Program-made: the position numbers and the translations under genes
Shown: piece after piece, positions 8,484 to 57,866 of the stretch
How the letters are laid out: each line of letters begins with the position of its first letter
Position numbering within the stretch: position 1 is the stretch's first letter
NCBI GenBank assembly: GCA_017403825.1
Contig: JAFRDO010000056.1
Location: 1 to 64,000 of the forward strand
Length of the DNA: 64,000 nt
Reading direction: 5' to 3'
Origin: Kiritimatiellia bacterium
GTDB taxonomy: Bacteria; Verrucomicrobiota; Kiritimatiellia; RFP12; UBA1067
The notes under the pieces: model-generated
Told to the model about the DNA's origin: nothing
The model's database searches: none
The model's input: the letters and a program-made list of their open reading frames with translations, nothing else

Positions 8484-8489
8484 ATTATA
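8484..8489 (-). promoter_or_regulatory. -10 box for nifS, leaderless arrangement
   Basis: TATAAT on the minus strand preceded by TGC, forming an extended -10. Nine bases separate it from the nifS ATG, so transcription should start about at the start codon. No Shine-Dalgarno sequence fits between them. Confidence 0.6.
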
Positions 8490-8503
8490 GCACAAATTTT
8501 TGT

Positions 8504-8509
8504 TATAAT
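8504..8509 (+). promoter_or_regulatory. -10 box for dnaE, leaderless arrangement
   Basis: TATAAT ends 8 bp before the dnaE ATG at 8518. There is no recognisable -35 hexamer and no room for a Shine-Dalgarno site. It is back-to-back with the nifS promoter in a 43-bp divergent intergenic region. Confidence 0.6.
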
Positions 8510-8517
8510 ACGTCTCC

Positions 8518-11500
8518 ATGTCCGACTTCGTACACCTTCATCTTCATACGACGTATTCACTGCTGGACGGGCAGTGCCAGATCAAGCCGCTTGTAGCAAA
8601 GGCAAAGGCCATGGGCATGTCGGCCCTGGCCGTAACCGACCACGGCAACCTGTTCGCCCTGAAGGCGTTCTACGACGAGTGCCGCGAGAACGGAATCAAG
8701 CCCATACTCGGTGTCGAGACGTATGTCACCTCTACCGGCGACCATACGCTGCGCCATGAGTACTTCCAGCAGCACAAGGAGGTAAAGGAGAAGCGCTTCC
8801 ACCTCTGTCTGCACGCAAAGAACTTGACTGGCTACCATAATCTCGTGAAGCTAATCTCCGAGGCGCACATAAACGGCTACTACTACAATCCGCGAATCGA
8901 CCACGCCTTGCTGGAGAAGTACCATGAGGGGCTTCATTGTTCGTCGGCCTGCATCGCCGGCGAGGTGGCATATTACCTTGACGACGGGTTGAAGGGCGGC
9001 AACGATCCGGCGAAGGCCGAGGAGATCGCACGCTGGTATCATGGGCTCTTTGGCGACGACTACTCGCTGGAGGTGATGATCCATCCGTCCGGCAAGGGCG
9101 AGGGCGCGGGGACTGTCCCCGGACGCGAGCCGATCCCTCCCGAGGCCATAGCCGACTTCCGCGACCTGGAGGCGCGGCAAAGGCGTGTTGCGGACCGCGT
9201 GCGCGCCTTGGGCAAGAAGCTCGGGATCCGCGTGATCGCTACGAACGACGTGCATTTCCTTGAGAAGGACGACGACGACTCTCATGACGTGCTTCTCGCC
9301 CTTTCGACGGGCAAGAAGATGTCCGACTCGGGGCGCATGATCTATACCGGCCAAGAGTACTTCAAGAGCGAGGAGGAGATGCTGGCGCTCTTTCCTGACG
9401 CGCCGGAGCTTGTTGCCGCGACGAAGGAGGTGGCCGACGGCATCGAGGAGTATTCGCTCAATTCCGACCCGATCATGCCGAAGTTTCCGATTCCGGCCGA
9501 GTTCGGCGATGAGGAGTCGTTCAAGGCGAAGTATGACGAGAAGACGCTTGCGGGCATGTATCCGGAGGGACGCATAGCGAAGTTCGGCGGCTACGAGAAG
9601 GCGATACGCATACAGTTCGAGGCGGAGTACCTTGCATCGCTCGCCTGGGACGGCGCCAAGCGCCGGTGGGGCGACCCGCTGCCGCCGGAGACGTCCGAGC
9701 GTGTGCAGTTCGAGCTGGACACGATTCGCACGATGGGCTTCCCCGGCTACTTCCTGATCGTGCAGGACTACATAGCTGCGGCGCGGCGCATGGGCGTTTG
9801 GGTCGGGCCGGGGCGCGGCTCCGCCGCAGGCTCCGCCGTCGCGTACGCGCTCGGCATCACGAACGTTGATCCGCTCAAGTTCGACTTGCTGTTCGAGAGG
9901 TTCCTGAACCCCGACCGCATATCGATGCCCGATATTGACGTCGACTTTGACGACTCCGGGCGCCAGAAGGTGCTCGATTTCGTGACGAACAAGTACGGGC
10001 AGGATCATGTCGCGCACATCGTCACGTTCGCTCAGCTGGCGGCGAAGTCGGTGATCAAGGACGTCGGGCGCGTGATGGACTATCCGCTCGCCGATACGAA
10101 CAAGCTTGTCGCGCTTGTTCCCGGCACGCCAAAGATCACCTTCAAGAAGGCGACGAGCCCGAGGGACAAGAACGACAACCCCAACGTGGACTATTCGCAG
10201 GAGCTTGTGGACGCGTTCAACTCCGACGATCCGACTGTTCACCTCCTCATGGAGCGCGCAAGGCACCTTGAGGGCGGCATGCGCCAGCCTGGCGTGCACG
10301 CCTGCGGCGTCATCATTTCCCGCGATCCGCTGATCGAGACGCTGCCGGTGATGCCGACGGAAAACGAGACATTGCTCACCACGCAGTACGACGGACACTA
10401 TGTCGAGCCGGTGGGACTGCTTAAGATGGACTTCCTCGGCCTAAAGACGCTGACCGTGGAGAAAGAGTGCGTCGCGCTCCTCGGGGCGAACAACCCGCGT
10501 GTCCCAGAGGAACTGCGGGGGGCGGACGGGATGCTCGACCCCGACAAGATCCCCGATGACGACCGTGAGACGTACGAGCTCTTCGGCCGCGGCGAGACGA
10601 CGGGCCTATTCCAGTTCGAATCCGACGGCATGAAGAAGTGGCTGATGGCGTTGCAGCCAGAGCGTCTTACGGATCTCGTCGCCATGAACGCCCTTTACCG
10701 GCCCGGGCCGATGGACTACATACCGGCGTTCGTCCGCCGCAAGAAGGGTGAGGAGGCGATCGTCTACGATCATCCGCTCATGGAGAAGTACCTGGCCGAC
10801 ACGTACGGCGTCTGCGTGTACCAGGAGCAGGTTATGCTTCTCTCGCGGCTTCTCGGCGGCTTCACGCGCGGCGATTCGGACAAGTTGCGCAAAGCGATGG
10901 GCAAGAAGCAGGCCGCAGTCATGGAGGCCCTGAAGGTCAAGTTCGTCGAGGGCTGCCTCGCCAATCCAGCGTTCCGCATCGACAAGTGGGCGGACGAGAC
11001 GGAGGCCCGCACTCTCATCGACAAGATATGGGACGACTGGCGCGCGTTCGCATCGTATGCGTTCAACAAGTCCCACGCCGTCTGCTATGCCTGGATAGCG
11101 TACCAGACCGGCTACTTGAAGGCGCACTACCCGGCCGAGTTCATGTGCGCCCAGATATCGTCCGAAATCGGCAACTTCGACAAGCTCCCCGGGTTCGTCG
11201 CCGAGTCGCAGGAGATGGGGCTGGAGCTTCGCCTGCCGGACGTGAACGAGTCCGGCTCGAAGTTCGTGCCCACGTCGGACGCCAAGGGCATCCGCTACGG
11301 GCTGTCGGGAATCAAGGGCGTCGGCGCGGCGGGCGAGGCGATCGTAGAGGAGAGAAAGGCGAATGGCCCCTACAAGGGCTTCCTCGACTTCTGCATAAGG
11401 CTGGCCGGGACGCCGGCGTGCAACAAGCGCGTCCTCGAGAACCTGACGCGCACAGGCGCCTTCGGTTCGCTCGAACCGAACCGGGCGAAGCTCTTCAACA

Positions 11501-12471
11501 ACATCGAATACGCCCTCAAGAAGGCGCAGCAGCGGGCGAAAGAGAAGGCGAGCGCCCAGGCGAGTTTCTTCGACCTGATGGACGGAGGCGAGGAGCGCGT
11601 CTCCGACAGCGAGCTCTCTCCGTCGCCGCCGTTTTCGCCGGCGGAGGACCTCAAGAACGAACGCGATTTCCTCGGCGTCTACATCTCCGGGCATCCGCTT
11701 CAGAGCTGTCGCCGCGTCATAGCCGAGGTTGCGACGTTCAAGGCGTCGCAGATGGGCGACGAGGAGGCGGTGGACGAGCTGCTTAAGGCGCAGCCGACGG
11801 ACAAGTGGAAGAAGAAGTCGAATCCGCACGTGAAGGATCACCGCGCCCTGTCGCACCTCGACGTGCGCCTTGTCGGCATCCTTACGGCATGCACTGTGAA
11901 GACGCCGAAGCCGCGTCCCGACGGCACGGTTGGACAGAGATGGGCCATACTGCAGATCGACGACGGCGCGTTGCTGGACGCATTCTGCTTTGCGAAGGCG
12001 TGGGAGTCGTGCAGCGCCCTGGAGACGGCGGTGGACAAGCTTGTGCTGCTGTGCGGCGAGGTGTCGCACAGGATCAACTACGAGAAGGACGACAGGTTCG
12101 AGAAGCGCCGTCCGTCCGTCGGCGACCTTAACTTCACGGTGCGCGAGGCGTATGTGCTTGAGGACGCCATGCCGATGCTTTCGAAGGGAATGAGGATACG
12201 CTTGCGCTACGACGACCCCGACGTCAGGGCGAAGGCGGAGCGGATTCGCGACGCCATACGTCGCAGTCCCGGCCGGCTGCCGGTCGTGCTGGAAATGGCT
12301 TGTCCTGGCGGCAAGGTGGTCGACATCGACCTTGGTTCAGGTCTTGGCGTGGCCGTAACGGTTTCCTTCCTTTCGGAGCTGGGCAAGATCGTGCCGCAGT
12401 CTGACGTGTCTTTCGGCCCGTCGGACAAGGTTTATCTTGCGCCACGTGAGCCAAAACCATGGGAGCAGTGA
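8518..12471 (+). CDS. dnaE: DNA polymerase III alpha subunit
   Basis: The replicative polymerase catalytic subunit, 1317 residues, longer than the roughly 1160 of E. coli. The N-terminal PHP domain begins FVHLHLHTTYSLLDG and keeps the TDHGN metal motif. The palm carries PDIDVDFDD at about residue 470, the catalytic Asp cluster. The YRPGPM motif lies near residue 725 and the FNKSHAVCY element near residue 850. The tail contains an OB-fold-like region (RLVGILTACTVKT). Extra length sits in insertions near residues 180-230 and 330-400. The gene is alone on its strand, divergent from nifS, and appears to have a leaderless promoter. Confidence 0.96.
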   Translation: MSDFVHLHLHTTYSLLDGQCQIKPLVAKAKAMGMSALAVTDHGNLFALKAFYDECRENGIKPILGVETYVTSTGDHTLRHEYFQQHKEVKEKRFHLCLHAKNLTGYHNLVKLISEAHINGYYYNPRIDHALLEKYHEGLHCSSACIAGEVAYYLDDGLKGGNDPAKAEEIARWYHGLFGDDYSLEVMIHPSGKGEGAGTVPGREPIPPEAIADFRDLEARQRRVADRVRALGKKLGIRVIATNDVHFLEKDDDDSHDVLLALSTGKKMSDSGRMIYTGQEYFKSEEEMLALFPDAPELVAATKEVADGIEEYSLNSDPIMPKFPIPAEFGDEESFKAKYDEKTLAGMYPEGRIAKFGGYEKAIRIQFEAEYLASLAWDGAKRRWGDPLPPETSERVQFELDTIRTMGFPGYFLIVQDYIAAARRMGVWVGPGRGSAAGSAVAYALGITNVDPLKFDLLFERFLNPDRISMPDIDVDFDDSGRQKVLDFVTNKYGQDHVAHIVTFAQLAAKSVIKDVGRVMDYPLADTNKLVALVPGTPKITFKKATSPRDKNDNPNVDYSQELVDAFNSDDPTVHLLMERARHLEGGMRQPGVHACGVIISRDPLIETLPVMPTENETLLTTQYDGHYVEPVGLLKMDFLGLKTLTVEKECVALLGANNPRVPEELRGADGMLDPDKIPDDDRETYELFGRGETTGLFQFESDGMKKWLMALQPERLTDLVAMNALYRPGPMDYIPAFVRRKKGEEAIVYDHPLMEKYLADTYGVCVYQEQVMLLSRLLGGFTRGDSDKLRKAMGKKQAAVMEALKVKFVEGCLANPAFRIDKWADETEARTLIDKIWDDWRAFASYAFNKSHAVCYAWIAYQTGYLKAHYPAEFMCAQISSEIGNFDKLPGFVAESQEMGLELRLPDVNESGSKFVPTSDAKGIRYGLSGIKGVGAAGEAIVEERKANGPYKGFLDFCIRLAGTPACNKRVLENLTRTGAFGSLEPNRAKLFNNIEYALKKAQQRAKEKASAQASFFDLMDGGEERVSDSELSPSPPFSPAEDLKNERDFLGVYISGHPLQSCRRVIAEVATFKASQMGDEEAVDELLKAQPTDKWKKKSNPHVKDHRALSHLDVRLVGILTACTVKTPKPRPDGTVGQRWAILQIDDGALLDAFCFAKAWESCSALETAVDKLVLLCGEVSHRINYEKDDRFEKRRPSVGDLNFTVREAYVLEDAMPMLSKGMRIRLRYDDPDVRAKAERIRDAIRRSPGRLPVVLEMACPGGKVVDIDLGSGLGVAVTVSFLSELGKIVPQSDVSFGPSDKVYLAPREPKPWEQ

Positions 12472-12511
12472 CGTCCGCAAGGTCTAAAAACAATCATCAG
12501 TTAAGTGCCAT

Positions 12512-14039: not shown

Positions 14040-14055
14040 TTGCGGCCATTTGTTG

Positions 14056-14061
14056 TATAAT
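14056..14061 (+). promoter_or_regulatory. -10 box for the sodium symporter gene, leaderless arrangement
   Basis: TATAAT ends 6 bp before the ATG at 14068. A weak TTTCGC lies 17 bp upstream at 14033-14038. There is no Shine-Dalgarno sequence. Confidence 0.5.
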
Positions 14062-14067: not shown

Positions 14068-15816
14068 ATGCGGATGAACATAATCGACTTCGCGGCCATA
14101 GGGCTTTTCTTCGCGGCGCTCTTCGGCATCGCGGCCGCGTGCTCCCGCCGCGCGGGTAAGGACGCAAAGGACTTCTTCCTCTCGGGGCGCTCCATGCCGT
14201 GGTGGCTCATAGGCGTTTCCATGTGCGCGGCATCGACCTCGACCAACTCTGCCAATATGTTCACCGAGTTCATCCGCAACTCCTCTCTTGGAGAGAACTG
14301 GAAGTGGTGGGCGTTCCTGCTGACGGGCATGCTCACGGTGTTCGTCTATTCCAAGCTCTGGGTGCGCTCCGGCGCAAAGAGCGATATCGAGTTCTACGAG
14401 CTTCGCTACTCTGGCAAGGCCGCCGCGTTTCTCCGCGGCTTTCGCGCGGTCTACCTCGGTATCGTTTTCAATGTCATCACCACGGGGCTCGTAATGCTCG
14501 CGGCGATCAAGATCGGGCAGGCGCTTTTCGGTGTCGGGCAGTGGACGGTCGTTGCCGTCACGGCCGTTGCCTCGATCGTCTATTCGGCGCTCGGCGGTTT
14601 CCGCGGCGCGATCTACACCGACTTTTTCCTTTTCGTAGTCATAATGATCGGTGCAGTTGCCGGCATGTACTACGCCATAAACCATCCTGCAGTCGGTGGG
14701 TTTTCGGCGATGATGTCACACCCCGCAGTGCAAAGCCATCTCTCGTTTTTCCCAGACCCCTCCAACACGGATCTCTTCGTCGCCGTGTTCGTCATACCGG
14801 TTGCGATCCAGTGGTGGAACGTGTGGTATCCCGGCAGCGAACCTGGCGGCGGCGGATATATCGTACAGCGAATGCTTTCCGCGAAGAGCGAGGGACACTG
14901 CGTGGGAGGATCGATCCTCTACCAGGTCATCAACTACGCGATCCGCCCCTGGCCGTGGTACCTAACGGCCTTCGCGTCGCTCATCGTCTTCCCGGACCTC
15001 GCGTCGCTTCAGAGGGCTTTCCCGAACGTGAACCATGCGCTTGTTAAAAGCGACCTCGCGTATCCTGCGATGCTGACGTTCGTACCGAACGGTTGGCTCG
15101 GCGTTGTCGCAGCTTCGATGATGGGGGCTCTCTTCTCCACGGTCGCGGCGCATCTCTCGATGGGATCCAACTACATCGCGAACGACTTCTGGAAGCGCTT
15201 TGTACGCCCAGAGGCAGGCGAGCGCGAACTCATCGTCGTAGGACGCGTGACAGTCATCGTGCTGATGGCGCTTACCGCCGTCATCTCGCCGTTCCTCATA
15301 TCGGCTGGCGCGGTCTTCAACCTGATTCTCCAGATTGGCGCGGGCACGGGGCTCATCTACCTGCTTCGCTGGTTCTGGATGCGCATCAACGCGTGGAGCG
15401 AGATCACAGCGATGGCCGTTTCGTTCGCGGTAGCCGTTTCCCTGCAGCTCGTCTATCCGCATCTCGGAGGCCCCGCCCTCGCCTCCTGGCACCGGTTGCT
15501 GATCGTCATGGCCATAACGACTGCGGCCTGGGTCGGCGTTACTCTGTTGACTCCGCCGACCGAGGCGGCGAAACGTGCGGCGTTCCAGAACAAGATAAGG
15601 GCCAGCGGACACGACATTGCATGGGGAATGCTGGCGATGACTGTCTCGTGCGTCGCCATCTATTCGCTAATGTTCGCAAGCGGCTGCTGGATATACGGCC
15701 GTACGGCCGCAGCCGCCGCGCTTGCCGCGTTCGCGGCCATCGCCGGACTTTCCCTCGTCCCGATTCTAAAACGTCTCAACTCCCACACTCCCAGCTCCCA
15801 CACTCCCAGCTCATAA
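14068..15816 (+). CDS. Sodium:solute symporter (SSS family)
   Basis: A polytopic membrane protein of about 582 residues with at least 12 hydrophobic helices. It carries SSS-family features: FLSGRSMPWWLIGVSM in the second helix region, GAIYTDFFLF, and a long even series of transmembrane segments. It should couple sodium influx to uptake of a sugar or related solute. The start is the ATG at 14068, six bases after a TATAAT box. The last residues are encoded by a short tandem repeat and read LNSHTPSSHTPSS, an apparently disordered tail. The gene is 19 bp upstream of two Fe-S proteins and then GH92, suggesting that it imports the product of that unit. The substrate is not determinable. Confidence 0.88.
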   Translation: MRMNIIDFAAIGLFFAALFGIAAACSRRAGKDAKDFFLSGRSMPWWLIGVSMCAASTSTNSANMFTEFIRNSSLGENWKWWAFLLTGMLTVFVYSKLWVRSGAKSDIEFYELRYSGKAAAFLRGFRAVYLGIVFNVITTGLVMLAAIKIGQALFGVGQWTVVAVTAVASIVYSALGGFRGAIYTDFFLFVVIMIGAVAGMYYAINHPAVGGFSAMMSHPAVQSHLSFFPDPSNTDLFVAVFVIPVAIQWWNVWYPGSEPGGGGYIVQRMLSAKSEGHCVGGSILYQVINYAIRPWPWYLTAFASLIVFPDLASLQRAFPNVNHALVKSDLAYPAMLTFVPNGWLGVVAASMMGALFSTVAAHLSMGSNYIANDFWKRFVRPEAGERELIVVGRVTVIVLMALTAVISPFLISAGAVFNLILQIGAGTGLIYLLRWFWMRINAWSEITAMAVSFAVAVSLQLVYPHLGGPALASWHRLLIVMAITTAAWVGVTLLTPPTEAAKRAAFQNKIRASGHDIAWGMLAMTVSCVAIYSLMFASGCWIYGRTAAAAALAAFAAIAGLSLVPILKRLNSHTPSSHTPSS

Positions 15817-27535: not shown

Positions 27536-27541
27536 ATTATA
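27536..27541 (-). promoter_or_regulatory. -10 box for the GH106 gene
   Basis: TATAAT on the minus strand, 23 bp before the ATG at 27512. The expected leader is about 17 nt and contains GGAG, so this promoter gives a leadered message. Confidence 0.45.
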
Positions 27542-27574
27542 CCAAAAAAACCGAATGCGCGATTGCGCGCCTCG

Positions 27575-28986: not shown

Positions 28987-29823
28987 TTATGGCTTGTGCG
29001 TTGCGAGGGTGTGGGAGAGGTGGCTTGCATCGCAGAAGCCGGTGCGGGACGCAATTTCGCAGAGCGAGAGATCAGTTGTTTCGCGAAGCGACATTGCCTT
29101 CTTAATTCGCATTGAAAGTATGTAGTCGCCTGGGCTTTTTCCTAGGGCTTTCCTGAACTCACGGTGCAGGGTGCTTGGCGACATTCCAGAGATGCTGCAC
29201 AGTTCGTCGAGCGTGATTTTATGGCTTAGGTTTGTGGCGATGAAGTCGATTTCCTTTTGTACGGAGATATCTTGCATGGGTTCGTTCACTTGTGGCGTAG
29301 CGCGGGAAAGGCAGAGTAAAAGCGATGCGAAGAGTGATTCGCATACAGTGTGGCGCATGGGCTGTTCGGAAAGTCCTTCTCGCCGAATCAGGTTAATCAG
29401 TTGGAGGACTTCGGAAAGGTTATATCGCGATACTCGACCGAGAGTGTTAACGCGAACTGATGCGGGGTTTTGAGGGAAGAACTCGTTCATCAATGGGAAT
29501 CCGGTGATCACCAACGGCGTGGGCGGTCTTTCACAGTGGTAGAGTACATTGAACACGACAGTGTTTGGTGCAAGTTCCGCATAGCCGTGCCGTTCGCCGG
29601 GATGGATTACGAAGAAGTCGCCCTTGGAAAGCCTGTCTGTTCTATCGGCGTGAACGTGTTTTATCTTTCCAGACGCGATTACAACCAGCTCTGAAAACTC
29701 GTGGTCGTGCATTGCGACAAAAGCGTTGCTAGGTGCCTCTCGCATCTCATGTACGATACACGGCAGGGCGGATTCCTTGAAGTAGTCCGCGTCTTTCAGC
29801 CTTTCATGGTGTTTTATCGCCAT
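28987..29823 (-). CDS. AraC-family transcriptional regulator with cupin sensor domain
   Basis: A 278-residue regulator. Residues 1-110 look like an AraC-type cupin ligand domain (HDHEFSELVVIASG, HPGERHGYAEL). The last 100 residues contain two helix-turn-helix motifs (LDELCSISGMSPSTLHREFR, CEIASRTGFCDASHLSHTL). It probably senses a sugar and activates nearby glycan genes. It diverges from the 29992 gene and the FGE-fold cluster, its most likely target (inference). A TATAAT box ends 7 bp before its ATG, so its message is probably leaderless. The 139 bp between its 3' end and the convergent ATPase gene show no strong terminator. Confidence 0.85.
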   Translation of the reverse strand: MAIKHHERLKDADYFKESALPCIVHEMREAPSNAFVAMHDHEFSELVVIASGKIKHVHADRTDRLSKGDFFVIHPGERHGYAELAPNTVVFNVLYHCERPPTPLVITGFPLMNEFFPQNPASVRVNTLGRVSRYNLSEVLQLINLIRREGLSEQPMRHTVCESLFASLLLCLSRATPQVNEPMQDISVQKEIDFIATNLSHKITLDELCSISGMSPSTLHREFRKALGKSPGDYILSMRIKKAMSLRETTDLSLCEIASRTGFCDASHLSHTLATHKP

Positions 29824-29830: not shown

Positions 29831-29836
29831 ATTATA
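29831..29836 (-). promoter_or_regulatory. -10 box for the AraC regulator, leaderless arrangement
   Basis: TATAAT on the minus strand, separated from the ATG at 29823 by 7 bp. There is no Shine-Dalgarno site. Confidence 0.55.
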
Positions 29837-29949
29837 TCATATGTTCGTTGGAAATGGCAGTTCGCTTATTATAAAACGGAAACATCATATGACATGATTC
29901 TTCAATAGAGCGGCAAGATTGTACATTTATCCCAAAGCGGAGGGTGTGG

Positions 29950-37685: not shown

Positions 37686-39629
37686 ATGGGTGCTAAGATC
37701 AAGGGGAAGGTGGTCATATTCTCAGTGGCTGTCGCGTTTGCCGCGTTTGGTGATTCTCTCGGCAATATCGGTGACGTGCGGCTCAAGGGGTATATAGGTG
37801 AACGGCTGGATATGATGATTGAACGGCATGTCGCCGCACGGGATGTCGATTATATCACCGCGCCATTCAAGGAGAAGACCGAGCGCAATGGCTGGTGGCA
37901 GACGGAGTTTTGGGGCAAGTGGATGCATTCCTCCGTCCCGTATTTGCGGTATGTGTCGAATGTAAACTGGAACGGTGGGGGCGGTGCTTCGCTTGAGGAT
38001 TCAATCGAGAGAGGTATCGAGCGAATTCTCTCTTCTCAAGAGAAGAACGGCTATATCGGAAACTACCCCGACGAGCTGCGGTGTGGCGAGGGCTGGGATG
38101 TCTGGGGAATGAAGTACACTATGATGGGGTTGTTGCATTACTATGATTGGGAATACAAAAGTGAAAATGTCAAATGTAAAAAAGACAGAGCGCAGTGCGC
38201 TCTTGAAGCTTGTCGGAAGCTTTGCGACTATGTGATTGCGGAAATCGGGCCGAACGGGCGGCGTGGGCGTGAGTTGTGGCAGACAGGTAATTGGGCCGGC
38301 TACGCCAGTTCGTCCATACTTGAGCCGGTGATATGGCTCTACAGGCGTACCAACGACAAGAAGTATCTTGACTTTGCCACGTATCTTGTCAAGGGAATGA
38401 CCGAGCCGGAGGCTGGACCGCGCCTGCTCGATCTGGCGTTGAAGGGCGTTTCGGTGGCCGACCGTAACGGTTACGGCAACACGCCCGAGAAATCTGGCGA
38501 TTATGTGATGAAACACAATCGTTGGAAGTCGTACGAGATGATGAGTTGCTATCAGGGATTTCTCGAATACTACGGGGTGACAGGAAGGAAGGACCTCTTT
38601 GAGGCGGCAGTCAAGACTGGCAACGACATAATCAAGGAGGAGATCAATCTGGCCGGCGGCTGCGCTTGCTCGGAGGCGTGGTTCCACGGTGCGAAAAAGC
38701 AGCATCTTCCGTACATACACCTTCAAGAGACGTGCGTGACGACGACTTGGATGCGTTTCTGCGAGAAGCTTCTTGAGATTACGGACGACGCGAGGTGGGC
38801 AGATCAGATTGAACGCACTTTCTACAACGCCTACCTTGGTGCGCTTCGCTCGGACGGTGGCGAGTTCGCCGCATACACTCCACTAACCGGCAATCGCTGG
38901 CACGGTATGAACCACTGTTTCATGCATACCGACTGCTGCACGTCGAACGGACCGCGTGGCTTCCTCTGCTTCCTGAAGAAGCTTTTCGCGACACGTGGCG
39001 ACGTGGTGACATTCAACTTCTATTCGTCTGCGCTCGTGAAAGGTGAGCTTTCGGGCGGACGCAAGGTCGCTTTCGACATGTATTCACTTTATCCTCGGAC
39101 AGATTATGTCAGAATTGTCAGCCATACGGCCGGGGCGGTACCTGTTCGCTTCCGCATTCCCACATGGAGCGCAAAGACGGAAGTAAAGTTGAACGGCAAG
39201 GCGTTGGACGGTGTTACGGCAGGGAGCTATTTCACGGTTGAACGCGACTGGCAGTTCGGCGACATCATGGAGGTCAAGTTTGACATGCCCGTTGTGGCGC
39301 ACACGCTCGGCCACCATGTAGCATTTACGCGAGGGCCGGTGCTACTCGCCCGCGACAGCCGCTTTGCCGACGGAGATTTGACGGAGCCTTTTAGGAGCGG
39401 GATTAGGGACGGACAGGTGATGCCGACATTCGCGGCGGTACGAACTCCATCGGATGACGTATGGATGGCTTTCTCAGCGACGCTTCCCATCGGCTCGCAC
39501 ACGGAAAATCCTGAGGCGAGCAATCCTTCGACCGTGTTCTTCTGCGACTACGCTTCCGCTGGAAATACATGGACTCGGGCCAACTTCTACCGCACCTGGT
39601 TCCAGATTGAATACGGTCCTCAAGAGTAA
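37686..39629 (+). CDS. GH127-type beta-L-arabinofuranosidase (DUF1680)
   Basis: A 647-residue protein with a short N-terminal hydrophobic signal (KVVIFSVAVAFAAFG). The barrel is made of helical hairpins and the C-terminus is a beta-sandwich. Glu348-Thr-Cys350 and Cys417-Cys418 match in order and spacing the zinc and nucleophile site of the characterised GH127 enzyme HypBA1 (Glu338, Cys340, Cys417, Cys418). So a zinc-bound cysteine nucleophile and retaining cleavage of beta-L-arabinofuranosides are expected. The family also contains other activities. It has its own promoter and stands after the toroid enzyme gene. Confidence 0.8.
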   Translation: MGAKIKGKVVIFSVAVAFAAFGDSLGNIGDVRLKGYIGERLDMMIERHVAARDVDYITAPFKEKTERNGWWQTEFWGKWMHSSVPYLRYVSNVNWNGGGGASLEDSIERGIERILSSQEKNGYIGNYPDELRCGEGWDVWGMKYTMMGLLHYYDWEYKSENVKCKKDRAQCALEACRKLCDYVIAEIGPNGRRGRELWQTGNWAGYASSSILEPVIWLYRRTNDKKYLDFATYLVKGMTEPEAGPRLLDLALKGVSVADRNGYGNTPEKSGDYVMKHNRWKSYEMMSCYQGFLEYYGVTGRKDLFEAAVKTGNDIIKEEINLAGGCACSEAWFHGAKKQHLPYIHLQETCVTTTWMRFCEKLLEITDDARWADQIERTFYNAYLGALRSDGGEFAAYTPLTGNRWHGMNHCFMHTDCCTSNGPRGFLCFLKKLFATRGDVVTFNFYSSALVKGELSGGRKVAFDMYSLYPRTDYVRIVSHTAGAVPVRFRIPTWSAKTEVKLNGKALDGVTAGSYFTVERDWQFGDIMEVKFDMPVVAHTLGHHVAFTRGPVLLARDSRFADGDLTEPFRSGIRDGQVMPTFAAVRTPSDDVWMAFSATLPIGSHTENPEASNPSTVFFCDYASAGNTWTRANFYRTWFQIEYGPQE

Positions 39630-43484: not shown

Positions 43485-44687
43485 TTATATGTCGGGTTGG
43501 CGGGTGGTGTGGCCGAAGTGGCGCTTGTACATCTGGTAGAGCTGCTTGGCGGAGGCGAAGTGCATTGCCTTGACGATGTTGCTCACGCTTTCGCCGTGGC
43601 GAATCCGCCGCTGGACTTCGTTCAGCCGCGCGTTGCTGATGGCCTTGTGTATCGTCGTGTGCGAGACTTGCGAGAAGCGCAGCTCCGCCAGTCGCCGCGA
43701 GCAACCAAGGTGGGCAATGACGTCGCTTGGCGTGAGGTCTTTCGTGCAGTTTGCGGAGATAAACTCAAGCGCGATGTTCACAAGGTGCGTAGCGGGCACC
43801 GATCGCGCCGTCGATTCGCCGGCGAACACGTCCTTTGCCGGTATGAGGACTTCGTGCGGACGGCCTTTCCATTTTGGATGCTTGAAGAGGAAGTCCAGTT
43901 CCTTAACGACCTGCCGCCCCATCATCCGCAAGTTCGGGATGACACTTGATATGCTCATGCCGCACTTGGCATGCTGCGAGATGTCATAGTCCACGCCAAT
44001 GACTGAAACCTGCGAGGGGACGGGAATGCATTCTGCTTTGCAGGCGTTGATGACGTCCGCCGCGCACATGTCGGATGCGGCCATGACGGCGGCGGGCTTT
44101 GGCAGGGCGCGTATCCATGTCCTTAGCTGCTCGAAGAAGTCTTTTGGCGAGAGCGGCGCAGGACTGGTCTTGTCTGGGAACACGGATGTTTCGCAGCCGC
44201 CGTCGCGCTTCATGGTCTGGCGGAAGGCCATCATGCGTTCGATTGAATAGAACAGGAAGTCCTTGGGAAGGTACTGATCGTCTCTCTCGTGGACGAATCC
44301 GGCCGATTTGTAGTCGCCGCGTTCAATGAGGTGCTTGGCTGCACGGCGTCCGATGTCTGCATTGTCGGTCCAGACATTTGCGATTGCATTGCAGCGGGCG
44401 GATAGCCGTCGGTCGGTTATATTGGCGAGAACCGTCGGGATTCGCGATTTGACTACTTTCTCCATCACCTCGTCGGTTCCTGGCATCGACAGTATGAAAC
44501 CGTCGTATGTCTTGCCGAATTCATTCACAAGTTCCTTGCTTGTGAAGTATGTTCCGGGACGGACGGCACTCAGAGCCCAATGGCTCGTATTGGACATTTC
44601 ATCAAGGATGCCGGAGAAAAGTTCCCGCCCTGTACACGTGTCCAGTGAGCACACAGCCAAGACGCTGCATCGATCTTTGAAGTTCAT
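43485..44687 (-). CDS. XylR-type transcriptional regulator (periplasmic-binding sensor plus AraC HTH)
   Basis: A 400-residue regulator starting at the ATG at 44687. Residues 5-280 form a LacI/periplasmic-binding-protein-like sugar sensor (VLAVCSLDTCTGRELFSGIL, VSVIGVDYDISQHAKCGMS). The last 100 residues are an AraC-type HTH domain (LTPSDVIAHLGCSRRLAELR, VSNIVKAMHFASAKQLYQMY). This order is that of the xylose regulator XylR, so it should activate genes on binding a pentose or related sugar. It diverges from the three-repeat secreted protein gene, with three TTGCG direct repeats in between. A TATACT box ends 7 bp before its ATG. Confidence 0.85.
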   Translation of the reverse strand: MNFKDRCSVLAVCSLDTCTGRELFSGILDEMSNTSHWALSAVRPGTYFTSKELVNEFGKTYDGFILSMPGTDEVMEKVVKSRIPTVLANITDRRLSARCNAIANVWTDNADIGRRAAKHLIERGDYKSAGFVHERDDQYLPKDFLFYSIERMMAFRQTMKRDGGCETSVFPDKTSPAPLSPKDFFEQLRTWIRALPKPAAVMAASDMCAADVINACKAECIPVPSQVSVIGVDYDISQHAKCGMSISSVIPNLRMMGRQVVKELDFLFKHPKWKGRPHEVLIPAKDVFAGESTARSVPATHLVNIALEFISANCTKDLTPSDVIAHLGCSRRLAELRFSQVSHTTIHKAISNARLNEVQRRIRHGESVSNIVKAMHFASAKQLYQMYKRHFGHTTRQPDI

Positions 44688-44694: not shown

Positions 44695-44700
44695 AGTATA
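44695..44700 (-). promoter_or_regulatory. -10 box for the XylR-type regulator, leaderless arrangement
   Basis: TATACT on the minus strand, 7 bp before the ATG at 44687. There is no Shine-Dalgarno site. Confidence 0.5.
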
Positions 44701-44707
44701 TCATATG

Positions 44708-47403: not shown

Positions 47404-47430
47404 GTTGACTAGCACAATCTCGATTTTTGG

Positions 47431-47436
47431 TATAAT
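47431..47436 (+). promoter_or_regulatory. -10 box for the GH39-like gene
   Basis: TATAAT, 30 bp before the ATG at 47467. A small inverted repeat (TTCCC/GGGAA, 47445-47461) lies between it and the start and includes the ribosome-binding site. Confidence 0.45.
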
Positions 47437-49028: not shown

Positions 49029-49057
49029 TTGCGGTGCTGACGTCGCTGTGCTATAAT
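49029..49057 (+). promoter_or_regulatory. der promoter, leaderless arrangement
   Basis: TTGCGG, a 17-bp spacer and TATAAT ending 8 bp before the ATG at 49066. Transcription would start at the start codon. No Shine-Dalgarno site is present. Confidence 0.65.
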
Positions 49058-49065: not shown

Positions 49066-50433
49066 ATGAACGTGGTTTCGCTAGTCGGGCGCCCGAACAC
49101 GGGCAAGAGCGCGCTTTTCAACCGCCTCGTGCGCAAGCGCGTGGCGATCGTATTCGACCAGCCCGGCGTCACGCGCGACCGCGTCACGCGCGAGGTGGAG
49201 CTGGGCGGGCGGCGCCTGATGCTCGTGGACACCGGCGGCATAGCCTTCGACCGGCGCGTCACCGGCGACCCGCTCGACGAGGAGACCCGCAGCCAGGCTG
49301 CGCTGGCTGTCGAGGATTCCGCCGTCTGCGTGGTTGTCGTAGACGCCCGCGCCGGCGTGACGCCGCTTGACGCAGAGGTGATCTCAAGGGTGAGGGCGTC
49401 GGGTGTGCCGTGCCTCATCGCGGCCAACAAGTGCGATACTTCGTCCGACGACGTGCGCACCGCGGAGTTCGCGGACTTCGGGCTTCCCGTGTTTGCCGTT
49501 TCCGCCGAACACGGGCGGGGCGTCGAGGAGCTTGTGAGGCAGGTCGTTTCGCGCCTGCCGCCCGCCGAGGCGGACGAGTCGGCGGCGCGGCCTCTCCGCG
49601 TGGCGGTCGTCGGGCGCCCGAACGTCGGCAAGTCGTCTTACGTCAACCGCCTGCTCAACGCGCCGCGCGTCATCGTCAGCGAAATCGCCGGCACCACGCG
49701 CGACGCGGTCGAGGTTCCGTTCACGATCGGCTCCGGACCCGAGGCGCGGCACTACATGCTCGTCGACACGGCCGGCATGAAGCCGCACACGAAGATGTCG
49801 AAGACTTCGGTGGACAACTTCTCCCTCTTCCGCAGCGAGCAGGCGATAGAGGAGGCCGACGTCGTGCTGCTGCTCATAGACGCGCAGATGGGCCCGACCA
49901 TGCAGGACAAGCGGATAGCCGGCAAGATTCTCGCGGCGAATCGCGCCTGTGTCGTCCTCTGCCAGAAGTGGGACCTCGCGCAGGCTGACGGCATAACGGA
50001 GACGAAGGCCCTGCCGGCTCTGCGCCAGATGATGCCGTTCCTGAACTTCGCGCCGGTGGTATTCTGCTCCAACACGTCCGGCTACAACATACGCCGCACC
50101 GTCGACGCCATCGACCGCGCGGCGGCCAGCGCGTCGGAGCGCCTGCCGACAGGAATGCTTAACCGTGTCATCGAGACGGCGACGAAGAAGACGCTCGCGC
50201 CGATGATACGCGGCAAGCGGCTGAAGGTCTACTACGGGCTTCAGGTGTCGATGAACCCGCAGACGATCCGCCTGTTCGTAAACGATCCCAAGCTTGTGAC
50301 GCCCGCCTACCTCTCGTTCATCGAGAAGAACATTCGCGCACGGTTCGGCCTCGAGGGCGCGCCGCTGCGAATCTTTCTCAAGGCGCGCCCCAGGAAGGGG
50401 CTCCCGTCGGAAGGCGGCAAGGAAGGCAAGTAG
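49066..50433 (+). CDS. der: Ribosome biogenesis GTPase Der (EngA)
   Basis: A 455-residue protein with two consecutive GTPase domains and a KH-like C-terminal domain, needed for 50S subunit maturation. The first G1 motif is GRPNTGKS (residues 6-13) with DTGG and NKCD. The second is GRPNVGKS (about residue 183) with DTAG. In the second domain the NKxD motif reads QKWD (in CQKWDLAQ), an unusual Asn to Gln change at a guanine-contacting position. Length and layout are otherwise normal. The message is probably leaderless. It is convergent with the HydB-like gene, with one base between stops. Confidence 0.95.
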   Translation: MNVVSLVGRPNTGKSALFNRLVRKRVAIVFDQPGVTRDRVTREVELGGRRLMLVDTGGIAFDRRVTGDPLDEETRSQAALAVEDSAVCVVVVDARAGVTPLDAEVISRVRASGVPCLIAANKCDTSSDDVRTAEFADFGLPVFAVSAEHGRGVEELVRQVVSRLPPAEADESAARPLRVAVVGRPNVGKSSYVNRLLNAPRVIVSEIAGTTRDAVEVPFTIGSGPEARHYMLVDTAGMKPHTKMSKTSVDNFSLFRSEQAIEEADVVLLLIDAQMGPTMQDKRIAGKILAANRACVVLCQKWDLAQADGITETKALPALRQMMPFLNFAPVVFCSNTSGYNIRRTVDAIDRAAASASERLPTGMLNRVIETATKKTLAPMIRGKRLKVYYGLQVSMNPQTIRLFVNDPKLVTPAYLSFIEKNIRARFGLEGAPLRIFLKARPRKGLPSEGGKEGK

Positions 50434-52186: not shown

Positions 52187-52674
52187 GACGCCGTCCCTTC
52201 CGCCGCGATCTTGCGGACGATTTCCCTGGCCTTCTGCGGCGTCAGCGAGCCGTAGGCCGTTTCGTTGATCATCATGACCGGCGAGAGCGAGCAGCAGCCG
52301 AGGCACGCGACCTCCTTCAGCGAGAAGAGCCCGTCTTCGGTCGTTCCGCCGTCCTCGATGCCCAGCTCGTCCTTGAGCGCGGCGGCGATGGAGTCAGCGC
52401 CGTTCACGTGGCACGCCGTGCCCTTGCAAAGGAGTATGAGGTTCTTGCCGACCGGCTTGAGCCTGAACTGCGAATAGAACGTGGCCACGCCCAACGCCTT
52501 CGCAGGGGAGACGCCCTGGCGCTCCGCAATGCGGTAGATGACGTCGGCGGGCAGGTAGCCGTATATCTCCTGCGCTCGCTGCAGTATGGTAACGAGAGCA
52601 TGCCCGTCGCCCTCGAACTCCTTGAACACGGGTTCGAGCTTCGACAGGTCGCTCGCGGCACAGTCTTTGCACAT
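52183..52674 (-). CDS. NuoE/HydC-like [2Fe-2S] thioredoxin-fold subunit
   Basis: A 163-residue protein. The start at 52674 is chosen because GGAGG lies 8 bases before it. The N-terminal helical part (ALVTILQRAQEIYGYLPADV, ATFYSQFR) and the [2Fe-2S] cysteines (LLCKGTACHV and CLGCCSLSP) match the 24-kDa NuoE subunit of NADH dehydrogenases and HydC of hydrogenases. It should pass electrons between the NuoF-type subunit and other carriers. Its stop overlaps the HydB-like start, so the two form a coupled pair. The -10 box lies at 52718-52723. Confidence 0.9.
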   Translation of the reverse strand: MCKDCAASDLSKLEPVFKEFEGDGHALVTILQRAQEIYGYLPADVIYRIAERQGVSPAKALGVATFYSQFRLKPVGKNLILLCKGTACHVNGADSIAAALKDELGIEDGGTTEDGLFSLKEVACLGCCSLSPVMMINETAYGSLTPQKAREIVRKIAAEGTAS

Positions 52675-52717
52675 CGTCGTAACCTCCTTCCGCACCATGC
52701 GGAAAACATATCGTCAT

Positions 52718-52723
52718 ATTATA
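52718..52723 (-). promoter_or_regulatory. -10 box for the NuoE/HydB-like pair
   Basis: TATAAT on the minus strand, 43 bp before the chosen ATG. A leader of about 37 nt with GGAGG is predicted, in contrast to the leaderless genes nearby. Confidence 0.5.
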
Positions 52724-52746
52724 CCATAATCCGCGCGGTTGGCGCA

Positions 52747-52773
52747 CGCCCTTGCGCGAAGGGCGGTTTTTTT
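52747..52773 (+). terminator. Intrinsic terminator-like hairpin upstream of rpsA
   Basis: CGCCCTT / AAGGGCG stem with a GCGCG loop, followed by G and seven T. The rpsA -10 box TATACT begins 2 bp after the T-run, so the hairpin overlaps the promoter's upstream half. It may insulate rpsA from read-through. Confidence 0.5.
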
Positions 52774-52775
52774 GA

Positions 52776-52781
52776 TATACT
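52776..52781 (+). promoter_or_regulatory. -10 box for rpsA
   Basis: TATACT directly after the terminator T-run. The leader to the ATG at 52861 would be about 73 nt, long enough for autoregulation by S1. Confidence 0.4.
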
Positions 52782-52860
52782 ACAATTTCCGCGCCCAAAG
52801 ACGGGGCGGACGCGGCAGAAACCCGCGAACGGAAACAAACTAAAGAAAAAGTACAGTAAG

Positions 52861-54615
52861 ATGGCAATTCGCAAGCCGACCCCGGCTGCGGCCAGGTCCG
52901 CCGCCATGGCGGAGATTTTGGCCGCCTCGGAAGAGTCCAAGTTCAAGAACGGCAGCCTCATCGAGGGCACCGTAAGCGCAATCAAGGGCGACGACGTGTT
53001 CGTCGACATAGGCTACAAGTCCACCGGCACCATAGGCATCGACGAGTTCGGAGAGGGTGCGGAAGTGAAGGTCGGCGACAAGGTCACCGTCATGCTCCGC
53101 GAGCTGGAGAACGACAAGACCGGCATGGTGGTCCTTTCGAAGCGGGCCGCCGACGACAAGATCCGCTGGGAGAAGATTCTCGACCGCTACGTCGAAGGCT
53201 GCGTCGTGACCGGCACGATCAAGTCCGCCGTGCGCGGCGGCCTGCTCGTTCAGATCGACGACGTCGAGGCGTTCCTGCCCGGCAGCCAGGTCGAGGTTGC
53301 GCCTGTCAAGGAGCTCGAGCCCTATGTCGGGCAGACGTTCGACTTCAAGGTCATAAAGATATCCAACGAGCGACGCAACCTCATCGTCTCGCGCCGCGAG
53401 CTCATAGAGGGCCAGCTTGCCGAGAAGAAGGCCGAGCTGCTCGCCAGCCTCCAGAAGGGCGAGGTCCGCAAGGGCCGCGTGAAGAACATCACCGATTTCG
53501 GAGCGTTCGTCGACCTCGACGGCATCGACGGCCTCCTGCACATAACCGACATGAGCTGGGGTCGCGTCAAGCACCCGAGCGAAGTGCTCAAGGTCGGCCA
53601 GGAGCTGGACGTCATGGTGCTCGACGTCGACCGCGACCGCGAGCGCATCTCGCTCGGCCTCAAGCAGACGACGGAGAACCCGTGGAACTCGATCCAGGAT
53701 CGCTTCCCTGTCGGCGCGCGCGTCTCCGGCAAGGTCGTGAACCTCGCCGCCTACGGCGCGTTCGTGGAGATCGCCCCCGGCATCGAGGGTCTCGTTCACA
53801 TCAGCGAGTTCAGCTGGACCAAGCGCGTGGCTCGCGCCTCCGACGTGCTGTCGGTCGGCGACGAGGTCCAGGTCGTCGTCCTCTCGGTCGACGTGGAGAA
53901 CCAGAAGATCGCTCTCGGCATCCGCCAGACGCAGGCGAACCCGTGGGACACGGTTCAGGAGCGCTTCCCGGTCGGCTCGAAGATCAAGGGCAAGGTGCGC
54001 AACTTCACGGCGTACGGCGCGTTCGTCGAGCTCGAGGAGGGCATCGACGGCATGATCCACGTCAGCGACATGAGCTGGACGCGCAAGATCAACCACCCGT
54101 CCGAGTGCCTCCAGAAGGGGCAGGAGGTCGAGGCGGTCGTCCTCGACGTCAACCCGAAGGACCAGCGCATCTCTCTCGGCCTCAAGCAGGCTCAGACCGA
54201 TCCGTGGGACGAGATCGCCCAGAAGTTCCCTGTCGGCTCCGTCGTCAAGGGCAAGGTCTCCAAGATCGCCTCGTTCGGCGCGTTCATCGAGCTGGAGGAC
54301 GGCGTCGACGGCCTCGTGCACATCTCGCAGATCTCCGACCAGCGCGTCGAGAAGGTCAAGGACGCGCTCGCGGTCGGCCAGGAGGTCGAGGCCCGCGTCG
54401 TCAAGGTGGACCGTGGCGAGCGCCGCATCGGCCTGTCGATCCGCGCGATGTCCATGACGGAAGAAGAGGTCAAGGCGCTTGCGTCCGAGACTTCCGCCGA
54501 AGGCACCGAATCGCAGTCGGCGTCCTCGGCCGGTGGCGAGAACCTTGGCGGGCTTTCCGCTGCGTTCGACAACGCCTTCGCGAACGTCGAATGGCAGCCC
54601 GGCGAGGCCAACTGA
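52861..54615 (+). CDS. rpsA: 30S ribosomal protein S1
   Basis: A 584-residue protein with six S1 RNA-binding repeats. The first two are divergent (IEGTVSAIKGDDVFVDIGYK; GTIKSAVRGGLLVQID). Four closely similar ones follow, each with a GAFVDLDGIDGLLHITD-type core (FGAFVDL, YGAFVEI, YGAFVEL, FGAFIEL). This matches the six-repeat S1 of gram-negative bacteria, which delivers mRNA to the ribosome. The C-terminal tail is Ser/Ala/Glu rich. rpmB follows after 27 bp. Repeats 3-6 are very similar at the DNA level, so copy-number changes by recombination are possible. Confidence 0.94.
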   Translation: MAIRKPTPAAARSAAMAEILAASEESKFKNGSLIEGTVSAIKGDDVFVDIGYKSTGTIGIDEFGEGAEVKVGDKVTVMLRELENDKTGMVVLSKRAADDKIRWEKILDRYVEGCVVTGTIKSAVRGGLLVQIDDVEAFLPGSQVEVAPVKELEPYVGQTFDFKVIKISNERRNLIVSRRELIEGQLAEKKAELLASLQKGEVRKGRVKNITDFGAFVDLDGIDGLLHITDMSWGRVKHPSEVLKVGQELDVMVLDVDRDRERISLGLKQTTENPWNSIQDRFPVGARVSGKVVNLAAYGAFVEIAPGIEGLVHISEFSWTKRVARASDVLSVGDEVQVVVLSVDVENQKIALGIRQTQANPWDTVQERFPVGSKIKGKVRNFTAYGAFVELEEGIDGMIHVSDMSWTRKINHPSECLQKGQEVEAVVLDVNPKDQRISLGLKQAQTDPWDEIAQKFPVGSVVKGKVSKIASFGAFIELEDGVDGLVHISQISDQRVEKVKDALAVGQEVEARVVKVDRGERRIGLSIRAMSMTEEEVKALASETSAEGTESQSASSAGGENLGGLSAAFDNAFANVEWQPGEAN

Positions 54616-54642
54616 TCAATCTCAGGCGAAAGGAATTCAGAA

Positions 54643-55775: not shown

Positions 55776-55809
55776 GGTCTTGTCCAGTTTTCGCTTGTGT
55801 TGTTTCCCG

Positions 55810-55838
55810 TTGCATTCGTCGGTGCAGTATGGTATACT
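55810..55838 (+). promoter_or_regulatory. rpsP promoter
   Basis: TTGCAT, a 17-bp spacer and TATACT. The leader to the ATG at 55877 is about 32 nt. Confidence 0.6.
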
Positions 55839-55876
55839 ACGCGCCGTTTCATTCACCGAAAGGGCAAGAACGAACC

Positions 55877-56176: not shown

Positions 56177-56180
56177 TACA

Positions 56181-56549: not shown

Positions 56550-56574
56550 GAGGCCGACAAGGCGAATGAAACAG

Positions 56575-56614
56575 GCGGGCGACGGCTGCATGGCTGTCGC
56601 CCGCTTGCGTTTTT
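56575..56614 (+). terminator. Rho-independent terminator after rplS
   Basis: GCGGGCGAC / GTCGCCCGC stem with a 12-nt loop, followed by TTGCGTTTTT. It closes the rpsP-rplS unit before the convergent dinB gene. Confidence 0.75.
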
Positions 56615-56632
56615 CGGGCGGCGCGGCTGTCA

Positions 56633-57784
56633 TCACACGGAGAGGCCGTGGTCGCGCAGCCCGTCCAGCGCCTCGCTGAGCCGTTCGCGCTTTTCACGCA
56701 GCTTGTCGCTGGGATCTGCGAACAGCGCGGGCCCTTCAGCGTCCGGAGTGAATTGAATGTTGCTGACGCCGAAGCCGACGAGCCGCACTGCGCCGAACCT
56801 TTCGCGGTCGAACAGCTCCAGCGCCTTGGCGCGGAATGAGAAGTCGTCGCGGGCCGGCGCGTCGAACGGTGTCTGGCGGGTGATGGTGTTGAACGCGGAG
56901 TCGCGGAGCTTGATGCGGGCCGTGCGGGCCCAGCGCGGCGAGGTACGGAATCGGTGCCCGACGTCCGCTACGAGTTCGAGGAGCTTCGTCCGCACGATGC
57001 GCCGGTCGGTCACATCGGCGTCGAAGGTGTGTTCGCGGCTGACGGACTTTTCGTCGGACGGTTCCCAGTGCACCGTGTCGTCGGAACGGCCGAACGCATA
57101 TTCGCGCAGCGCAGCCGCCGCGTGCGCGGAGCCGAGGATTGTTGCGAGCTGCGTTTCTGGAAGTCTCTGGAGGTCGCCGCAGGTCGCTATGCCGTAGGGT
57201 CTGAGGAGCTTTTCGGTGTGTTGTCCGATGCCCCAGAGGACGCCGATCGGCCGCGGCGCGAGGAACGCGGCGATTGCGTCCGGGTCGAACGGCATCACGG
57301 TCATTCCGTCGGGCTTGTGCATCTCGGAGCCGATCTTGGCCAGAAGCCGGTTGGGCGCTATGCCGACGGAGCAGGTGACGCCGCACGTCTCGTGGACTTC
57401 GTGTCGCAGAGCTTCGCCGAGGCGTTCCGCAGTGCCGTGCAGATGGACCGAGCCTGTGATGTCCATGAATGCCTCGTCGATGGACACGGCCTCGACGAAC
57501 GGCGTGTAGTGTCCGAAGACCTCGAAGGCGCGTTCCGAGACTTCTGAATAGAGCTTCATGTTCGGGCTGACGAATATGGCCTGCGGGCAGAGCGAATACG
57601 CCGTGCGGGACGGCATGGCCGAGCGCACGCCGAACTTCCTGGCCTCGTAGGAGCAGGTGGACACGACGCCTCGCTCGTGCGGCCCAGAGCCGACGACAAG
57701 GGGGCGTCCGCGCCATTCGGGATGGTGCAGCAGCTCGACGGACGCGAAGAAGGCGTCCATGTCCACATGCAGTATCGTTCGCAC
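56633..57784 (-). CDS. dinB: DNA polymerase IV (DinB, Y-family)
   Basis: A 383-residue translesion polymerase. The GTG at 57784 starts the standard VRTILHVDMDAFFASVE, with catalytic Asp in HVDMDAFF and later SIDEAFMDITG. CSVGIAPNRLLAKIGSEMHK and the little-finger domain follow. A TATAAT box ends 6 bp before the GTG with an extended TGC, so the message is probably leaderless. It shares a divergent region with rnfE. No LexA box was recognised. Confidence 0.93.
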   Translation of the reverse strand: MRTILHVDMDAFFASVELLHHPEWRGRPLVVGSGPHERGVVSTCSYEARKFGVRSAMPSRTAYSLCPQAIFVSPNMKLYSEVSERAFEVFGHYTPFVEAVSIDEAFMDITGSVHLHGTAERLGEALRHEVHETCGVTCSVGIAPNRLLAKIGSEMHKPDGMTVMPFDPDAIAAFLAPRPIGVLWGIGQHTEKLLRPYGIATCGDLQRLPETQLATILGSAHAAAALREYAFGRSDDTVHWEPSDEKSVSREHTFDADVTDRRIVRTKLLELVADVGHRFRTSPRWARTARIKLRDSAFNTITRQTPFDAPARDDFSFRAKALELFDRERFGAVRLVGFGVSNIQFTPDAEGPALFADPSDKLREKRERLSEALDGLRDHGLSV

Positions 57785-57790
57785 GGACGG

Positions 57791-57796
57791 ATTATA
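57791..57796 (-). promoter_or_regulatory. -10 box for dinB, leaderless arrangement
   Basis: TATAAT preceded by TGC on the minus strand; 6 bp to the GTG start codon. Confidence 0.55.
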
Positions 57797-57830
57797 GCAC
57801 AAAGGACGTGTTGCGTGGCGACATGGACAC

Positions 57831-57859
57831 TTGTCAGTTTTGGCTTTAGATGTTATAAT
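57831..57859 (+). promoter_or_regulatory. rnfE promoter, leaderless arrangement
   Basis: TTGTCA, a 17-bp spacer and TATAAT ending 7 bp before the ATG at 57867. There is no Shine-Dalgarno site. Confidence 0.65.
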
Positions 57860-57866
57860 ACTGGGC

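Follow-up and report, generated by a model that had tools for sequence, protein, structure and literature searches.

Extended -10 promoter boxes set directly at start codons suggest leaderless expression of many genes in a gut lineage of Kiritimatiellia

Leaderless genes are well known in bacteria (PMC3160421, PMC12340547, PMC5397173, PMC4782308). The leaderless genes of Deinococcus-Thermus use a -10 motif TANNNT, most often TACACT, which stands before nearly one-third of genes (PMC12340547); in Akkermansia muciniphila, leaderless transcripts make up 10% of the transcription start sites found by Cappable-seq (PMC4782308). A survey of 953 genomes took TA-like -10 signals about 12 bp upstream as leaderless and saw a TG peak in several low-GC genomes; its main text mentions neither Verrucomicrobi nor Lentisphaer (PMC3160421). 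Both leaderless and Kiritimatiell occur in PMC10783764, which deals with classes of the anti-Shine-Dalgarno sequence, and among the open-access papers searched none combines Kiritimatiell, promoter and transcription start site. Here, we analyse a stretch of 64,000 nt (the window), positions 1 to 64,000 of contig JAFRDO010000056.1 from a Kiritimatiellia bacterium, in which eight genes carry a -10 box 6-9 nt ahead of the start codon, mostly as the extended -10 element TNTGNTATAAT. These boxes are very probably extended -10 promoters lying directly on the coding sequence, giving mRNA that is leaderless or nearly so. Many genes of this lineage appear to start this way, and the promoter signal appears stricter than is usual for leaderless bacterial genes.

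In sigma-70-type promoters, an extended -10 consists of TGN directly before TATAAT and makes up for a weak -35. In our genome, by contrast, the extended -10 is the main form found and is often located at the start codon. Akkermansia belongs to a different class of the same phylum. Our lineage resembles A. muciniphila as a gut member of Verrucomicrobiota with a leaderless minority, which was measured in that organism (PMC4782308) and is predicted from sequence here. As in Deinococcus-Thermus, where the -10 lies about 6-7 bp before the open reading frame (ORF), we find putatively leaderless mRNA, a second class of GGAG type and no pathway bias; unlike the TANNNT motif there, the signal here is TATAAT with TNTGN, at about 15% of sampled genes (PMC12340547). 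The groups above 60% GC in the 953-genome survey show a loose TAnnnT, unlike our genome at 59-60% GC (PMC3160421). Leaderless genes are known already; what is new is the lineage and a strict extended -10 at 60% GC.

All eight -10 boxes named by the initial annotation are present at the spacings claimed, and Pfam agrees with the gene names. The boxes and their genes are as follows.

8484..8494, minus strand: extended -10 TGTGCTATAAT, 9 nt ahead of the nifS ATG at 8474
7296..8474, minus strand: nifS-like cysteine desulfurase (Aminotran_5), putatively leaderless
8499..8509, plus strand: extended -10 TTTGTTATAAT, 8 nt ahead of the dnaE ATG
8518..12471, plus strand: dnaE, putatively leaderless; its PHP motif at residues 6-11 fixes the start
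14056..14061, plus strand: -10 box TATAAT without TGN, 6 nt ahead of the symporter ATG at 14068
14068..15816, plus strand: sodium:solute symporter (SSF), putatively leaderless; the coding-score caller rated TTG 14053 above the ATG
29831..29841, minus strand: extended -10 TATGATATAAT, 7 nt ahead of the AraC-type regulator ATG at 29823
28987..29823, minus strand: AraC-family regulator, putatively leaderless; missed by the coding-score gene caller
44695..44705, minus strand: extended -10 variant TATGATATACT (TATACT), 7 nt ahead of the XylR-type ATG at 44687
43485..44687, minus strand: XylR-type regulator (Peripla_BP_3 and HTH_18), putatively leaderless; the caller rated GTG 44528 above the ATG
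49047..49057, plus strand: extended -10 TGTGCTATAAT, 8 nt ahead of the der ATG
49066..50433, plus strand: der (EngA GTPase), putatively leaderless; related loci have close boxes, short leaders with a Shine-Dalgarno (SD) site or no box
57791..57801, minus strand: extended -10 TGTGCTATAAT, 6 nt ahead of the dinB GTG at 57784
56633..57784, minus strand: dinB-like Y-family polymerase (IMS), putatively leaderless
57854..57859, plus strand: -10 box TATAAT after GATGT (with TGN, without T at -5), 7 nt ahead of the rnfE ATG at 57867
57867..58544, plus strand: rnfE-like Rnf-Nqr subunit, putatively leaderless

The boxes are extended -10 elements of the form TNTGNTATAAT, a feature missing from the initial annotation. 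TGN is present in seven of the eight and the full element in five, or six if TATACT is allowed; the window holds 8 copies of TNTGNTATAAT against 0.08 expected. The pattern TATAAT-N6-9-RTG occurs 9 times, compared with a mean of 0.71 and a maximum of 4 in 100 dinucleotide shuffles. The box of the XylR-type gene, being TATACT, falls outside these nine, and two of them are unclean: one (37837-37854, minus strand) is antisense within a called gene and the other (52707-52723, minus strand) lacks a clear gene. By eye, none of the eight genes has a GGAG-type site directly upstream, in line with the earlier claim that they lack SD sites, and the box itself occupies most of the space. The good -35 boxes ascribed to der and rnfE hold for rnfE (TTGTCA, 5/6 by eye) but not for der, whose TTGCGG is poor (3/6 by eye).

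The divergent nifS and dnaE start codons are separated by only 43 bp (8475-8517), in which two extended -10 boxes stand back to back, so that each -35 region overlaps the opposite promoter or start.

The signal extends over the genome (G000), a metagenome-assembled genome (MAG) of 3.93 Mb in 96 contigs, 90.8% complete, at 59-60% GC. TATAAT-N3-12-ATG occurs 365 times against 40 for the reversed pattern, TATAAT-N7-ATG 111 times against 2 in the reversed control, and TNTGNTATAAT 487 times against 10 in the control. The genome-wide distance peak that the initial annotation had anticipated was sought in 41 loci of 820,175 bases in total (21% of the genome; the own sample below), and the TATAAT-to-ATG excess indeed reaches beyond the window, with its peak at 7. 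Counting only TATAAT-N(k)-ATG matches that open a frame of at least 100 codons, there are 8, 22, 14, 9 and 8 at k=6-10, compared with 0-3 at k=11-20, 0-7 at k=21-30 and 6 at k=0. TATACT occurs 4 times at spacing 7, and the other TATxxT and TAxxxT words have no clear peak at 6-9 in this sample. A loose TANNNT of the Deinococcus type was also considered and rejected, as it is not enriched at the same place and the TAxxxT words other than TAT lack a clear peak.

The shape of the element is strict. At 45 ATG sites with spacing 6-9, the positions ahead of TATAAT carry T at -3 in 91%, G at -2 in 89% and T at -5 in 87%. We call a gene leaderless-type if a box (TATAAT, or TGN plus TANNNT) lies 5-10 nt from a candidate start; among the TATAAT boxes of such genes, TGN precedes 52/60 and TNTGN 45/60 in our own genome, and 19/21 and 17/21, respectively, in three relatives. 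A -35 match of at least 4/6 was found among 144 TGN boxes 10 times at spacer 17 and 19 times at spacer 18, and 1-8 times (mean about 4) at the remaining spacers from 10 to 30. The -35 is thus weak and placed 17-18 bp from the -10.

In the own sample (L063-L102 and the window), which is 85% coding, 124 TNTGNTATAAT sites were found: 96 lie ahead of a gene within 250 nt, 8 fall inside genes in either orientation, and for 20 no gene was called over that distance; these last may belong to small ORFs, small RNAs or genes missed by the caller. When the best coding start is taken irrespective of spacing, 30 sites lie at 5-10 nt, 5 at 11-19, 25 at 20-40, 23 at 41-100 and 8 beyond, with 2 negative. The distances thus cluster at 6-10 nt, are few at 11-19 and become common again from about 20 nt, there often with an SD site. 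If the choice of start favours 5-10 nt, the first class rises from 30 to 45 sites, and the peak persists without that preference. By our definition, 78/530 genes of the sample are leaderless-type, including 56/268 likely heads of transcription units. Control windows with the same box gave 13 genes at 12-17 nt, 32 at 45-50 and 23 at 60-65, the last two of which likely include real leadered promoters. The numbers of genes with a box at 5-10 and at 12-17 nt in relatives are 9 and 0 in G001, 19 and 4 in G028, 6 and 0 in G013 (with 5 and 7 at the two far windows), 9 and 5 in G373, 4 and 0 in G118, 6 and 2 in G082, 5 and 4 in G003, and 4 and 3 in G012; the stretches of G003 and part of those of G012 were chosen around listed matches, so the small peaks at 7 there are not counted as evidence.

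The base before the start codon is constrained as well. At spacing 6-7 with ATG, a pyrimidine occupies -1 in 29/32 genes of the own sample, compared with 193/452 others (9 without upstream sequence; P ~1e-7), and in 18/18 compared with 115/293 in G001, G028 and G013 together (P ~1e-7). The excess is small at spacings 8-10 (17/27, P = 0.046), and the preference of leaderless-type genes for ATG is weak (P = 0.05 in our own genome, 0.04 in relatives). An SD of at least five nt at the best coding start was found in 3% of the 78 leaderless-type genes versus 47% of 40 genes with an extended -10 at 20-100 nt; an SD of five or six nt occurs in 28% of 176 other first genes and 39% of 240 internal genes, these gene classes sharing four genes. 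Two of five leadered extended -10 genes in G028 have an SD. The 3' end of 16S rRNA carries the anti-SD CCTCCTTT in the congener G034 and in 8/9 other full-length 16S loci, the ninth (G402) being unreadable; in our own genome no 16S was found, and the 16S 3'-end pattern had no match.

We propose the following sequence of events. Housekeeping sigma-A would recognise the boxes as the -10 parts of extended -10 promoters (TNTGNTATAAT) that have a weak -35 or none. RNA polymerase would open the box and most likely start at a purine 5-8 nt downstream; at spacing 7, the A of the ATG falls 8 nt after the box. The resulting mRNA would lack a leader or have one just a few nt long, leaving the ribosome to start on the terminal or near-terminal AUG or GUG without an SD. 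The remaining genes would use SD leaders or other starts.

Two genes whose starts are held by the protein allow this arrangement to be followed in relatives. For der, 56 related loci were compared; four of these (L030, L043, L052, L055) have no start codon at the row start, near copies are kept (L013/L017, L029/L060), and L056-L059, L061 and L062 were excluded as too distant. The closest Der, 88% identical, comes from the MAG uncultured bacterium RUG11823, and the other close loci are mostly from Kiritimatiellae/Kiritimatiellia, Verrucomicrobia or Lentisphaerae MAGs, many from ruminant gut. TATAAT lies 6-12 nt ahead of the start in 9 of the 56 and at 20-22 nt in another 9, all with AAGGAG or AGGAG between; 3 more have it at 14, 25 and 32 nt, and 35 have none within 60 nt. 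Most of the Der loci share an MN-V opening. For dnaE, 30 loci were taken from 36 matching genomes of the 39 in the genus, our own included: TGNTATAAT lies at 6-10 nt in 10/30, again with our own, TATAAT stands further up within 80 nt in 2/30, and 18/30 have none. By eye, the upstream sequences of the ten boxed dnaE loci are unrelated.

In the short der leaders of L013, L015-L017, L019, L023, L025, L029 and L060, the SD would fall near the 5' end of the mRNA.

Several results weigh against the boxes giving leaderless or near-leaderless mRNA. No TATAAT lies within 12 nt of the start in 47/56 related der loci and 20/30 genus dnaE loci, and TNTGNTATAAT at 5-10 nt from the best coding start is scarce in relatives (G001 1, G028 4, G013 0, G373 2, G118 0, G082 1). 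The start codons rest on a simple coding-score caller, and the own sample, drawn from contigs listed with a match, has a mild upward bias. The box fills the SD zone, so the low SD rate is partly forced and is not independent evidence, and none of the 7 leadered extended -10 genes in G001 has an SD. A control word, TAATAT, peaks too, with 8 and 4 at spacings 5 and 6, probably because it is contained in TATAATAT. Among the own TNTGNTATAAT sites, 60 lack a start codon at 5-10 nt, and in these the pyrimidine-purine (YR) step is commonest with the purine at +8 (26/60), but +5 is nearly as frequent at these leadered sites (24/60), and in six related genomes pooled +5 leads (18/39 versus 11/39 at +8). 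As YR steps occur at both positions, the start site can be placed only to within a few nt. Thus, of the earlier claim that transcripts begin at the start codon, the leaderless or near-leaderless part is strongly supported by the distance peak, the extended -10, the -1 pyrimidine and the boxes at the protein-fixed der and dnaE starts in part of the relatives, while the exact position holds only to a few nt; the sequence is best read as giving leaders of about 0-3 nt.

Considering that the coding-score caller favoured a later GTG (44528) over the ATG (44687) of the XylR-type gene, the promoters could be real while the true start codons lie further in and use an SD, making the genes leadered. We consider this quite improbable, since the DnaE PHP motif at residues 6-11 and the shared Der MN-V opening leave no room for a later start, and later starts would leave the pyrimidine at -1 in 29/32 genes unexplained. 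Slighter still is the chance that the motif is a regulator binding site, or belongs to a dispersed repeat, and precedes start codons by coincidence; the 11-nt word is indeed strongly over-represented, but it has the form of an extended -10 accompanied by a weak TTGACA 17-18 bp away, within the window it serves genes as different as dnaE, der, nifS, dinB and a regulator, and outside it the 45 aligned sites show little upstream conservation and the dnaE flanks differ by eye. That AT-rich hexamers precede starts by accident or through upstream AT bias is hardly credible: A+T is somewhat elevated at positions -14 to -7 before starts relative to the sequence around them, but the shuffles (0.71 against 9 in the window), the reversed pattern (2 against 111) and the missing clear peak of other TATxxT and TAxxxT words at 6-9 all contradict it.

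The promoters directly at start codons do not separate genes by function as had been suggested. The proposed division into leaderless housekeeping or regulatory genes and leadered genes for exported proteins is not borne out, as signal-peptide-like N-termini, called with a crude predictor, occur in 23/78 leaderless-type genes versus 83/214 genes with an SD or a leadered extended -10 (P = 0.17), and versus 68/212 other first genes (P = 0.78). The same crude predictor found no such split in G028 and G001 either. The extended -10 is found at putatively leaderless and leadered genes alike.

The element is unevenly distributed among relatives. TNTGNTATAAT is high in 18/18 genomes of the genus (151-487 sites, controls 0-23). 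Among 86 genomes surveyed, it is also high in g2, g11, g13, g14, f2/g20 and f68/g186, lower yet above control in g8 (62 versus 4 and 17 versus 0) and f68/g190 (18 versus 0), 2-3 times control in g19, f4/g189 and f4/g191, and low in g3, g12, g15, g16, g18, f4/g22, f67, most of f3 and f68/g187-188. In 96 sampled genomes from other orders of the class, none with at least 20 sites exceeded its control more than about 2.6-fold. Strong enrichment is thus confined, within the sampled class, to some lineages of one order. For the shorter pattern TATAAT-N7-ATG, a set of 57 genomes showed high numbers in g6 as well (46 versus 3), and among 288 genomes elsewhere in the phylum it is moderately above control in some, for example G202 (24 versus 4), G127 (21 versus 3), G193 (24 versus 5) and G217 (15 versus 0); close boxes without the extended form are therefore not restricted to the order.

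Changes in the housekeeping sigma factor provide a lead. In a clade consisting of g1, g2, g6, g7, g10, g11, g13 and g14 (the K-finger clade), the sigma finger, which we take to be region 3.2, has changed P to K, G to N or S, F to Y and E to P (A instead in g11). When the finger columns were removed, the RpoD tree recovered three single groups on long branches, namely the K-finger clade of f1 (99/99), f2/g20 (100/100) and f68/g186 (100/100), with bootstrap values that are not settled. Most of the family members that are poor in the motif have nearly identical RpoD sequences. Divergence is also seen in f4 and other orders, although they are motif-poor or at most moderately enriched, and g8 shows enrichment with no divergence. 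In the set compared for the finger changes, L212 gave no usable RpoD, 26/27 rows were added and L214-L216 were left out. YGDFIPD is present in the PDB SigA chains 1iw7, 3dxj and 1l9u, which are presumably from Thermus. The motif may have a single origin. A more specific proposal, which we regard as doubtful, is that in this order the strict extended -10 grammar and widespread leaderless expression arose or spread in several lineages with accelerated sigma-A evolution, our own lineage having changed its region 3.2 finger from SPVGDGDDAHFGDFIED to forms like SKVGDNDDA(H/K/R)YGDFIPD, approaching the Thermus SigA YGDFIPD; the finger may then contribute to positioning transcription initiation at the start codon. 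The finger as sole cause was rejected, since the motif occurs in f2/g20, whose finger is near-unchanged, and weakly in g8, whose finger is unchanged, G161 (f4/g22) has LP without the motif, and the PDB SigA 7l7b has FIPD too. The finger is a lead, not a mechanism.

Separately, RpoD-like matches below the family cut-off occur in G001, G006, G013, G014, G045, G048 and G056, in five of the seven besides a full RpoD; these proteins are perhaps a second group of sigma factor.

If leaderless expression from these promoters is true, this would be an uncultured gut lineage in which the leaderless promoter signal differs sharply among genera of one family. It stands next to sister genera with few such sites, and the gain or loss of leaderless expression would become testable by comparing near relatives together with their sigma factors. 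In these MAGs, some start codons would be called differently, and genes seemingly without ribosome-binding sites would be explained.

Three further extended -10 elements of the window have other contexts.

27536..27546, minus strand: extended -10 TTTGGTATAAT of a leadered gene, with the ATG at 27512 at 23 nt and GGAG between
47426..47436, plus strand: extended -10 TTTGGTATAAT of a leadered gene, with the ATG at 47467 at 30 nt
52718..52728, minus strand: extended -10 TATGGTATAAT, 8 nt ahead of the ATG at 52709 without a clear gene, in a frame without a Pfam match

The window also contains the gene for ribosomal protein S1. In 52404-52728, the 101-amino-acid minus-strand frame that follows the TATGGTATAAT box lies opposite the 5' part of the rpsA frame (52408-54615), in antisense orientation; rpsA may start further in, or the TATGGTATAAT site may drive something else.

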